From Candidatus Brocadia sinica JPN1 (GTDB lineage Bacteria; Planctomycetota; Brocadiia; Brocadiales; Brocadiaceae): DNA of 64,000 nucleotides. Every line of letters starts with the position of its first letter. The first letter of the stretch is position 1. The position numbers and the translations under genes are program-made. Where the stretch lies: contig NZ_BAFN01000001.1 in assembly GCF_000949635.1 (NCBI RefSeq), positions 2,294,001 to 2,358,000 on the forward strand, read 5' to 3'. This document shows positions 58,510 to 63,236 of the stretch, piece by piece. Below the pieces are notes generated by a model. That model made no database searches and was not told where the DNA came from. It was given only the letters and a program-made list of their open reading frames with translations.

Positions 58510-59262
58510 TTGATAGTTCGGAAATCACCCCGGGAAATTGAATTGATGAGGGTGGCTGGGAAAATTACCGCGGGGGCTCTGAGGTTAGCTAAGGAAATTG
58601 CAAAGAAAGATGTAACTACCGACTATTTAAATACAGAGCTTGAAAAGTACATTATAAATGAAGGTGGAATACCGATTTTTAAGGGGTACAGGGGGTTTCC
58701 GAAAAGCATATGTGCCTCAATAAACGAGGAAGTTGTCCATGGAATACCAGGAAGTCGAAAGCTGAAAAATGGTGATATCCTTAGTATTGACGTTGGTGTT
58801 GGCTATCGCAAATATGTGGCTGATGCAGCATTAACAATTCCCATTGGTGAAATAACGGCAGAGGCCAGACACATCATCGATGTTTGCGAAAAGTCGCTTT
58901 ATCTTGCAATTAATGTCATTAAAGCGAATGAAAAGCTTTCCTTGATTTCCAGGACAATACAAGATTATGTAGAGAGAAATGGGTATTCCGTCATAAGAAA
59001 TTATACTGGTCATGGAATTGGAAGATGTATGCATGAGGATCCGCAAGTCCCCAATTTTGTGAGTAAGGCGTTGTTGGAAGCAGATGAAATTTTAATGCAG
59101 GGAGTGACGATCGCGATAGAACCCATGATATGTCAAGGGAATTGTGATACCGAAGTATTAAATAACAAATGGACGGTTGTGACCAAAGATAGAAAATTAT
59201 CTGCCCATTTTGAACATTCAGTTGTGGTTACTGATGATGGGGTGGATATTTTGACATTATAA
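58510..59262 (+). CDS. map: Methionine aminopeptidase, type I
   Basis: A 250-residue enzyme that removes N-terminal Met. Metal ligands: Asp in [16 protein letters not shown], His in [20 protein letters not shown], Glu in IAIEPMI and the late HFEHSVVVT. It starts with TTG 58510, one base after the adk stop. Confidence 0.96.
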
Positions 59263-59287
59263 CAGATATTTTATATACTATAATAAA

Positions 59288-59714: not shown

Positions 59715-60098
59715 ATGCCAAGAATTGCTGGAAACGATATTCCTGCCGATAAAAGGGTTGTTATTGCGCTTACTTACATTTATGGGATTGGAAAGGCACT
59801 GTCTCAAAAGATATTGAAAGATTTGAATATCGATGAGAATGTGCGTGCAAAGGACATACATGAAGATCAATTGAGCATGTTGGGCGCATATATCGAAAAG
59901 AATTTTACCATTGAGGGTCAGTTGCGCAGGCAGGAAATGCAGAATATCTCGCGTATGAAAAGTATCAACTGTTACCGTGGAATACGACACAAAGTAGGTT
60001 TGCCAGTGAGGGGGCAGAGAACTAAAACAAATGCCCGCACAAGAAAAGGTCGAAAAAAGACAGTGGCCGGTAAAAAAAGTGTAAAAGAATTGGGTTAA
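59715..60098 (+). CDS. rpsM: Ribosomal protein uS13
   Basis: A 127-residue 30S head protein. MPRIAGNDIPADKRVVIALT, IYGIGKALSQKIL and RGIRHKVGLPVRGQRTKTNA are diagnostic. The usual next gene, rpsK, is displaced by a methyltransferase-like gene. Confidence 0.98.
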   Translation: MPRIAGNDIPADKRVVIALTYIYGIGKALSQKILKDLNIDENVRAKDIHEDQLSMLGAYIEKNFTIEGQLRRQEMQNISRMKSINCYRGIRHKVGLPVRGQRTKTNARTRKGRKKTVAGKKSVKELG

Positions 60099-60152
60099 TG
60101 TGACATCGTCTTATGCTCAGATTGCTGATATGTTACCTTGAAGAGAATCGCT

Positions 60153-60989
60153 ATGACAGGCAAAGAAACAATAGAAGGTGTGCTGAAATCTAGCGATGAA
60201 TTATTAAAGATTCTTGATCTAAATATTGATCAGTCAGGGGATGACAGGGAAAAAAAGAAATTCAATGAAGTGGTAGGGTTTTGCGAGCAAGTTCTGCGGG
60301 TTATAGAAACTTATGCGGCAGATAAGGAGATTGTGTTTCTTGATTGCTCGTGCGGTAAATCATACTTATCATTTGCACTAAATTATATATTTTTGAAGTG
60401 CCTTTTTAGAAAAGCTTTTTTTTATGGTGTAGATACTAATCGGGTACTTATAGAGAAATGTGAACAAATTAAAAAAAGTTTAGGTTTTCAAAACATGCTT
60501 TTTGTCAACGGCAGGATTATCGATGTTCAGCCAGAAAAGTATGTTGATATGGTGATTGCATTGCATGCCTGTGATATTGCCACCGATGAGACAATTGCCA
60601 AGGGTATTAAGCTTGGGGCGAAATATATAATAGTAGTGCCTTGTTGTGAGAATCAAATTCGGGGACGACTAAAGGCTGGGCACCCGTTAGTCGGTTTAAC
60701 TGACTTTGGGCTTTTAAGATATCGTTTTGCAGACATTCTAACGGAAGCTTTGAGATCGCAATTCTTAACTGGCGCAGGCTATCATGTGAAACTTATTGAG
60801 ATCGTATCTCCGAAGTTTACTCCGAAAAATTTAATGATTATAGCACGAAAGAAAAAGGAATACAGAAATTGCAACATGGATAAATATAAAAAGCTAGATG
60901 AAATGTTTAACACGAAATTTGTTTTAAAAAATTATTTTGATGAATGTGAATTAAAACGAGATGATTGCTTTAGTTCTGTTAACAGTTAG
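60153..60989 (+). CDS. Methyltransf_32-like SAM-dependent methyltransferase
   Basis: A 278-residue putative class I methyltransferase placed between rpsM and rpsK. The AdoMet site reads FLDCSCGKSYLSFAL (motif I), then YGVDTN (end of beta 2), IALHACDIATDE (motif IV region) and VVPCCENQIRG. The HACD and PCC motifs match the Methyltransf_32 group (METTL25- and GSTCD-like proteins), whose bacterial substrates are mostly unknown. I prefer ATG 60153 (GAAGAG upstream) over TTG 60138. The first DxGxG-type motif has Cys and Ser substitutions. Its position suggests rRNA or a ribosomal protein as target, which is inference. Codon use resembles its neighbours. Confidence 0.8.
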   Translation: MTGKETIEGVLKSSDELLKILDLNIDQSGDDREKKKFNEVVGFCEQVLRVIETYAADKEIVFLDCSCGKSYLSFALNYIFLKCLFRKAFFYGVDTNRVLIEKCEQIKKSLGFQNMLFVNGRIIDVQPEKYVDMVIALHACDIATDETIAKGIKLGAKYIIVVPCCENQIRGRLKAGHPLVGLTDFGLLRYRFADILTEALRSQFLTGAGYHVKLIEIVSPKFTPKNLMIIARKKKEYRNCNMDKYKKLDEMFNTKFVLKNYFDECELKRDDCFSSVNS

Positions 60990-61023: not shown

Positions 61024-61404
61024 ATGTCAAATGTAGGTAAGAAAAAGATACGGCGTAATGTAACACGAGCAATTGCTAACATACAGGCGACTTTTAATAA
61101 TACCTATGTCACGATTTCAGATATTAACGGTGAGACGATATGTTGGGCAAGTGCTGGTACAGTGGGATTTAAAGGGTCCCGCAAAAGCACACCCTTTGCT
61201 GCCCAGAAGGCGGCATCGAGTGCTGCGGAGAAAGCCCAAAAATTTGGGGTTCAGGAGATAGAAATCAGGGTAAAAGGTCCTGGCCCTGGTAGGGAGTCGG
61301 CAATTACGGCACTTCAGGCAGCAGGTCTGAGTGTGAAAGCGATTGAAGATGTAACGCCGCTTCCACACAACGGTTGTCGGCCCAGAAAAAAACGCAGAGT
61401 ATAA
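61024..61404 (+). CDS. rpsK: Ribosomal protein uS11
   Basis: A 126-residue platform protein. [37 protein letters not shown] and [18 protein letters not shown] are diagnostic over the whole length. Confidence 0.98.
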
Positions 61405-61438: not shown

Positions 61439-62065
61439 ATGGCTAGATATATAGGTCCGCAGTGTAGATTGTGTAGGCGGGAGGGCGAAAAACTATTCCT
61501 TAAAGGAATGAGATGTGACACCGTAAAGTGTGCAATTACAAAACGTAAATACCCCCCTGGCCAATTTACGTGGGGAAGAGGTAAATTATCAAAATATGGC
61601 ATTCAATTTAGAGAAAAACAGAAAGTAAAACGGTTCTACGGAATTTTGGAAAGGCAATTTCGGAATTATTTTAGGCGGGCAGAGAGACAAAAGGGGAATA
61701 CAGGCGAAAATTTTCTGAATATGCTAGAGAGAAGATTGGATAATGTTGTTTATTTACTTTTTTTTGCTGCGTCTAGAAAAAGCGCAAGACAGCTTATTTT
61801 GCATGGCCATATAATGGTTAATAATAAAAAAGTAGATATTGCTTCTTACCTTGTAAAGGTTGGTGATGTTATAAAACCGAGGAATAACGAGGTGAGTCAA
61901 AACATAGTAAAAGCAAATATCGAATTGGTTAAAGGTAGGAATCTTCCTGCTTGGGTTCAATTTAAAGCTGACGCACTGGAAGGGGTGGTAACACAGCTCC
62001 CTACAAGGGAAGATATTTCAGTTCCTGTTCAAGAACAGTTAGTAGTTGAACTGTGTTCTAAATAA
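61439..62065 (+). CDS. rpsD: Ribosomal protein uS4, zinc form
   Basis: A 208-residue 16S-binding protein. The N-terminus has the zinc ligands Cys9, 12, 26 and 31 (CRLC ... CDTVKC), and the S4 domain reads [21 protein letters not shown]4 represses the alpha operon in E. coli. A 154-base gap to rpoA follows. Confidence 0.98.
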
Positions 62066-62219: not shown

Positions 62220-63236
62220 ATGCGAATAAGGTGGAGAGGTCTTGAGCTTCCTGTCCGTGTGGATGTGGAAAAAGAGACTTTGACCGATAAATATGGCAAG
62301 TTTATAGCTGCTCCTTTTGAGCGAGGTTTTGGGCATTCTATAGGTAATAGTTTACGTAGAATTTTACTTTCTTCGTTAGAGGGAAGTGCGGTTGTATCTG
62401 TTAAAATAAATAGTGTAAGTCATGAATTTACTACTATTTCTGGTGTTGTTGAGGATGTGGCAGATATCATATTGAATATCAAAAATCTTGTTGTGAAGCT
62501 ACACACTGACCAACCTAAGGTAATAAGAATTGACGCGAACAAAAAAGGGGAAGTAAAAGCAAAAGATATTATAACGGATGCCAGCGTGGAGGTCGTAAAT
62601 GGAGATTTGCACATTGCCACGCTCTCGGAGGATATAAATTTTACTGTAGAAATGGAAGTGCGAAAAGGCCGGGGGTATGTTACGGCTGAGGAAAATGAGC
62701 CAGATGAACAGGAATTTGGATTAATTCCCGTCGATTCTTTATTTTCTCCCGTAAGAAATGTTCGTTATACTATTGAAGAAACTCGTGTTGGAAGACGTAC
62801 GAATTATGATAAGCTCGTTATGGAAATATTTACGAACAGTGTGGTTTCCCCTGAGATGGCCTTAGTTGAAGCAGCAAAAATTATGAGGAAACATCTAAAT
62901 CCTTTTGTGCAGTATTTTGAGATAGGCCGTGAGTTGCAACAAGTAGAAAAGAGAATGGGAATAGAATCAGTTTCAGAGATATCCGAGGAAGAGCTCAATA
63001 AAAAACTAGGTATACCGATAACAGAGTTGGACTTATCAGTAAGGGCTTCCAATTGTCTTGAGACTTCAGGCATTGCTACGGTGGGAGATCTTGTAGCAAA
63101 GACGGAAGAACAACTGCTAAAGATAAAAAATTTTGGTAAAACCACATTAAAAGAAGTAAAGGCGAAATTGTCACAGTTAAACTTGTCGATAGGAATGCCT
63201 GTGGCAGTTAAACAAACGGAAGAAGGGAAAGGATAG
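62220..63236 (+). CDS. rpoA: RNA polymerase subunit alpha
   Basis: A 338-residue assembly subunit. The N-terminal domain includes PFERGFGHSIGNSLRRILLS and the C-terminal domain reads ELDLSVRASNCLETSGIATV followed by KTEEQLLKIKNFGKTTL. Length is normal. The 154-base gap upstream is AT-rich with no convincing promoter. rplQ follows four bases after the stop. Confidence 0.98.
   Translation: MRIRWRGLELPVRVDVEKETLTDKYGKFIAAPFERGFGHSIGNSLRRILLSSLEGSAVVSVKINSVSHEFTTISGVVEDVADIILNIKNLVVKLHTDQPKVIRIDANKKGEVKAKDIITDASVEVVNGDLHIATLSEDINFTVEMEVRKGRGYVTAEENEPDEQEFGLIPVDSLFSPVRNVRYTIEETRVGRRTNYDKLVMEIFTNSVVSPEMALVEAAKIMRKHLNPFVQYFEIGRELQQVEKRMGIESVSEISEEELNKKLGIPITELDLSVRASNCLETSGIATVGDLVAKTEEQLLKIKNFGKTTLKEVKAKLSQLNLSIGMPVAVKQTEEGKG

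Follow-up and report, generated by a model that had tools for sequence, protein, structure and literature searches.

A Methyltransf_32 gene held between rpsM and rpsK in the alpha operon of Candidatus Brocadiia and its possible role in translation

The locus and its genes

The window, a 64,000-nucleotide stretch of the genome of Candidatus Brocadia sinica JPN1, contains a continuous ribosomal operon, its genes named here all on the + strand, in which a coding sequence of 278 residues plus stop (60153..60989) stands between rpsM (ribosomal protein S13, 59715..60098) and rpsK (S11, 61024..61404). Next comes rpsD (S4, 61439..62065); these genes were assigned by open reading frame and Pfam, in the case of the inserted gene also by the starts of its relatives. 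Two further genes, which we take from their sequences to be rpoA (62220..63236) and rplQ (L17, 63241..63801), complete the alpha operon, and both match the positions of rpoA and rplQ at a locus in Sphingobacteriaceae (L143, see below). The inserted protein (hereafter MT) matches Methyltransf_32 (PF13679) with an E value of 6.5e-34 and 117.4 bits, against a cut-off of 27, and is the sole protein of the whole genome above that cut-off. The original prediction of a 278-residue Methyltransf_32-like gene between rpsM and rpsK is thus confirmed. An alternative TTG start at 60138 lies 15 bases before the ATG at 60153; since relatives begin near the position of the ATG, the latter, giving 278 residues, is judged to be the correct start and the TTG is disfavoured. 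No NCBIfam model matched the protein at E <= 1, a PHROGs search returned nothing and, within the sequences of solved structures, only generic methyltransferases were found. The GC3 of the gene (0.319) falls inside the range of nine neighbouring operon genes (0.298-0.399), in agreement with the earlier description of an intact gene with codon use like that of its neighbours; its overall GC (0.352) is the lowest among the ten operon genes compared.

Distribution within Ca. Brocadiia and the phylum

The gene context was read by tblastn in a sample of 75 genomes of the class Ca. Brocadiia (Planctomycetota). A family match was obtained in 73 of them, and in 71 genomes the gene lies in the alpha operon, one locus in each. 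The full S13-MT-S11 order on one strand is present at 68 of the 71 loci, and at the other three (L180, L185, L028) MT adjoins S11 and the upstream side is cut by a contig end. In one genome (G019) the site is hidden by a contig break, the contig starting inside S11 (L195). In the remaining three (G062, G063 and G064; loci L196-L198), S13 and S11 directly adjoin each other, which accords with the earlier statement that rpsM and rpsK are nearly always neighbours. G062 and G063 carry a longer family member elsewhere in the genome, and no family member was detected in G064. Four genomes (G066, G068, G069, G074) have a remote paralogue each besides the operon copy. MT is held in place in all 71 readable class genomes outside families f6 and f7, with no case seen of a move out of the operon; as a shared derived character, the gene makes a clean marker within the class. 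At one locus (L027, genome G010), and only there, the MT frame is broken near the C-terminus, for which decay or an assembly error is possible. For the arrangement as a whole, an assembly error or a recent insertion was rejected on account of its recurrence at 68 of 71 operon loci, and the view of a settled gene stands. The listings and abstract openings covered by our literature search held no paper on the rpsM-MT-rpsK arrangement.

Across the phylum, the MT alignment was matched in 97 of 294 sampled genomes; beyond the class, the matching open frames are mostly longer. None of the 78 named loci outside the class (L076-L153) adjoins S13 or S11, and the remote paralogues of the four class genomes are not beside these genes either; therefore, Methyltransf_32 as such is no ribosomal-operon family, and one subfamily became one. 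It had been proposed that relatives found outside ribosomal operons would speak against a link to the ribosome. On this point, the prediction stands for the orthologues of the class, never seen outside the operon in the 75 genomes, but does not extend to the wider family, which lies away from S13 and S11.

Origin and evolution of the operon form

Sequences that were shorter than 180 aa, contained stops or X, or were identical to others were excluded, leaving a set of 155 rows, and rows below 230 aa were further excluded for a tree of 152 proteins. In this tree, 67 operon copies fall on one side of a branch with a support of 99, so that one origin would be enough for them and we infer a single entry. 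Long branches (L076) make the choice of a nearest outgroup for this clade uncertain. Three remote paralogues from genomes that also carry an operon copy (L189, L190, L191) are attached by a long branch close to the operon clade and may be the source from which the operon gene came.

Outside the class, most relatives are about 390-410 residues long, and their methyltransferase domain begins from about residue 140-200; thus, the operon form is without the N-terminal region of about 150 residues that most relatives elsewhere have. Such longer members occur in Acinetobacter, Sphingobacterium, Micromonospora, Verrucomicrobiota and others, and share with MT the catalytic domain (about 26-41% identical) as well as the LHAC...D and PCC motifs. 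Their N-terminal region gave no Pfam match over cut-off in the three that were scanned. They do not occupy the rpsM-rpsK site. The operon copies, for their part, are short and carry fixed residues of their own, absent from most others (e.g., S66, V162, T183, P224). Considering the methyltransferase part only, the median pI is 8.7 in operon copies versus 7.2 in the others. The dN/dS of MT is 0.070-0.122 in four of seven relatives, dS being saturated in the remaining three, and the gene is under purifying selection, evolving faster than S13 and S11. A family enzyme, cut down to its catalytic domain, would have entered the alpha operon once, in the ancestor of most Brocadiia, and would have stayed between rpsM and rpsK from then on.

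Outside the class, L143 is the only one of the 78 named loci to lie near an alpha operon gene, with flanks of up to 3 kb considered. In Sphingobacteriaceae, a full-length relative was matched in 25 of 101 genomes, one of them weakly. Nine of the 24 strong relatives are near rplQ and on the same strand, in eight cases directly after it (L143, L207, L214, L216, L219, L221, L223, L224); in the ninth (L222), an open reading frame of the opposite strand separates the two genes. For the other 15, no rplQ was found within the fetched stretch. Where the stretch reaches that far, the gene downstream of the relative presumably encodes DnaK. The adjacency of rplQ and the family gene in Sphingobacteriaceae arose independently. 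When the neighbourhoods of 112 loci not belonging to the operon group, many of them closely related to one another, were clustered, no general partner emerged; the larger clusters are lineage-bound.

Motifs, fold and related families

An alignment of 104 hand-chosen rows, all of which match the Methyltransf_32 profile, served for the analysis of motif invariance and for the second fold model. Three motifs on the + strand stand out. In AdoMet motif I (DCSCGKSYL, residues 64-72, 60342..60368), G68 is invariant in the 104 sequences; the same applies to L, H, A, C and the final D of LHACDIATD (residues 137-145, 60561..60587), and to P and both C of VPCC (residues 162-165, 60636..60647). The residue that follows VPCC is E in the window protein, Q, E or H in operon copies, and H or Q in the others. 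Because the glycine of motif I, LHAC...D and PCC are invariant, the protein is probably an active enzyme. The fold model built from the 104 sequences (pLDDT 89.1, pTM 0.89) is that of a class I methyltransferase; an earlier model from 13 sequences had a pLDDT of 69, and its Foldseek list was superseded by that of the 104-sequence model. Class I methyltransferases with tied scores, many of them RNA-modifying, head the list of structural matches. Among the matches listed, none is titled Methyltransf_32 or Trm13, and they indicate the general class I fold only. KsgA/RsmA, the 16S rRNA dimethyladenosine transferase, shares this fold and is among the matches; however, a true ksgA lies elsewhere in the genome, and the lack of an NCBIfam match to MT includes TIGR00755.

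Of the characterised Pfam families, the nearest is TRM13 (PF05206), a tRNA ribose 2'-O-methyltransferase that acts on position 4 in yeast, and whose profile covers the motif region in most MT relatives. At E <= 0.01, 69 of the 104 relatives match the profile (the lowest value being 1.5e-11), and 11 of 13 operon copies do so at E <= 1 (lowest 5.1e-6); one relative (L095) exceeds the cut-off, with 28.5 versus 26 bits. The window protein, in contrast, has no TRM13 match at E <= 1 and is without the zinc finger of Trm13, as no zinc-finger family, CHHC or other, was found in the Pfam scans, which points to kinship and not to membership. In the excerpted text of one report, a model of yeast Trm13 sets several conserved cysteines, together with K307, H350 and E467, in a pocket next to the AdoMet site; C304, C310, C343, C347, C348, C352, H308 and H350 are given as probable structural or metal ligands (PMC10608323). 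Judged by eye against the residues given in that excerpt, the HxC and CC pairs of MT resemble the ligand spacing of the yeast enzyme. The METTL25 group of human methyltransferases has the same Pfam domain, PF13679; the group is eukaryotic and its likeness to MT is one of family membership. Little is known of its function (PMC11514484). For bacterial Methyltransf_32 proteins, the listings and abstract openings covered by our search named no substrate.

Transcription and translation signals

No terminator-like site was found between 57500 and 62300, where 3.0 are expected by shuffling, and the gaps from MT to its neighbours are short (medians of 41 and 37.5 bases). The Shine-Dalgarno pairing stretch before the MT start (60131..60149, + strand) is weak, at -2.9 kcal/mol versus -5.6 for S13 and S11. 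A comparison across loci kept 66 of 71 MT starts, 68 of S13 and 71 of S11, with start sites chosen mechanically and loci without a usable start dropped. Anti-Shine-Dalgarno pairing of MT was at chance level, with a median of -2.9 versus -2.7 kcal/mol in shuffled sequences (p 0.12, a value that overstates independence, as the rows are related). The medians were -5.9 versus -3.3 for S13 and -5.8 versus -3.3 for S11, and MT pairing was weaker than that of S11 in 55 of 66 loci and than that of S13 in 59 of 66. The missing terminator-like site, together with chance-level pairing at MT against strong pairing at S13 and S11, suggests that MT is probably co-transcribed with the operon but sparsely translated, in the manner of an enzyme and not of a subunit. 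It would then be transcribed with S13, S11, S4, the alpha subunit of RNA polymerase and L17, and weak translation would provide a catalytic, not a stoichiometric, dose whenever ribosomes are made. A sigma-70-like promoter match (11 of 12) was noted at 59251-59279, just upstream of infA, and could serve as an internal promoter for the stretch infA-rpmJ-rpsM-MT-rpsK; promoter-like matches in the region (19) are not much above those in shuffles (14.0, sd 4.2).

Possible substrates

The fixed position in the operon suggests that MT modifies a component of the translation machinery, either the ribosome or another, and a role in the maturation of the small subunit may be read from that position as well. 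Our best guess, to which we give about an even chance, is a translation-linked role, likely RNA methylation. MT would most likely methylate RNA of the translation machinery, with 16S rRNA of the 30S subunit under assembly, the place at which S13 and S11 bind, as first candidate and tRNA as second; co-transcription, a low dose, an RNA substrate and a timing with 30S assembly would all belong to this picture. The position kept at 68 of 71 loci, with the other three cut by contig ends, argues for it, as do the single, well-supported group in the tree, the low dN/dS, the more basic operon copies, the lack of a terminator-like site, the weak ribosome-binding site of MT, the confident fold model and the many RNA-modifying enzymes among its structural matches. 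The kinship with TRM13, an RNA methyltransferase, and the independent rplQ adjacency lend a little more weight. Against it stand the failure of the window protein to match TRM13, the absence of a consistent translation neighbourhood in the rest of the family, the lack of any 16S modification gap that coincides with the presence of MT, and the three class genomes without an operon copy, of which G064 has no detectable family member at all.

Moreover, removing or moving a gene within an essential operon is costly, and inertia alone can preserve a position. The main rival is therefore a substrate unrelated to translation, with an operon that gave steady transcription and inertia that keeps the gene where it is, which we regard as possible though not probable. 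The unrelated neighbourhoods of family members elsewhere, the ribosome-binding site at chance level and an evolution faster than that of the neighbours agree with it, but the gene was not seen to have moved out in any readable class genome outside f6 and f7, and the rplQ adjacency is an independent one in another phylum.

Alternatively, MT could methylate a ribosomal protein of the same operon (S13, S11 or S4), for instance at the N-terminus or a side chain. S11 of E. coli is methylated at its N-terminus by an unidentified enzyme, and the place between the S13 and S11 genes would fit; kinship, however, favours an RNA enzyme, with TRM13 matched by 69 of 104 relatives versus 27 of 104 for PCMT, and we consider a protein substrate improbable.

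Returning to RNA methylation, a more specific proposal, doubtful as a whole, is that a lineage-specific, short TRM13-like enzyme adds a new methyl group to 16S rRNA (or to S13/S11) during 30S assembly in bacteria of the anammox class. In the same proposal, co-transcription would couple the amount of enzyme to ribosome synthesis, and the weak translation start would keep that amount low. If MT marks the 30S subunit, ribosomes of this class bear a modification that model bacteria do not have, and a lead is gained for the eukaryotic relatives of the family. The operon setting yields a concrete guess at the substrate for one Methyltransf_32 subfamily.

The question of a replaced standard enzyme was addressed with profile searches for KsgA, RsmD, RsmI and RsmG in a panel of 19 genomes, 14 of them from the class. 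RsmI and RsmG exceed their cut-offs in two panel genomes each, and none of these four carries an operon MT. In the window genome, neither RsmG nor RsmI gave a match at E <= 0.001. RsmG was unmatched in 12 of the 14 class genomes and weak in the other two, and RsmI was found in one of the 14 (G063). RsmG and RsmI, usually widespread 16S rRNA methyltransferases, thus seem to be missing from the class. That MT stands in for one of them, such as RsmI (2'-O-methyl C1402, the reaction type of TRM13) or RsmG (m7G527), would agree with this distribution and with a match to the MT alignment in only one of 18 RsmI genomes (G063, a remote copy) versus 96 of 276 others, a comparison that ignores kinship, but is very improbable, since both enzymes are also missing in class genomes without the operon MT (G062, G064), RsmI is rare throughout the phylum (over cut-off in 18 of 294 genomes) and many genomes have neither RsmI nor a match to the MT alignment. 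A replacement of KsgA or RsmD was rejected, as both are present as separate genes, KsgA over cut-off in 19 of 19 panel genomes and RsmD matched in 19 of 19, over cut-off in 17. The KsgA match of the window genome, over the TIGR00755 cut-off, lies at G000:C1:230410-231231.
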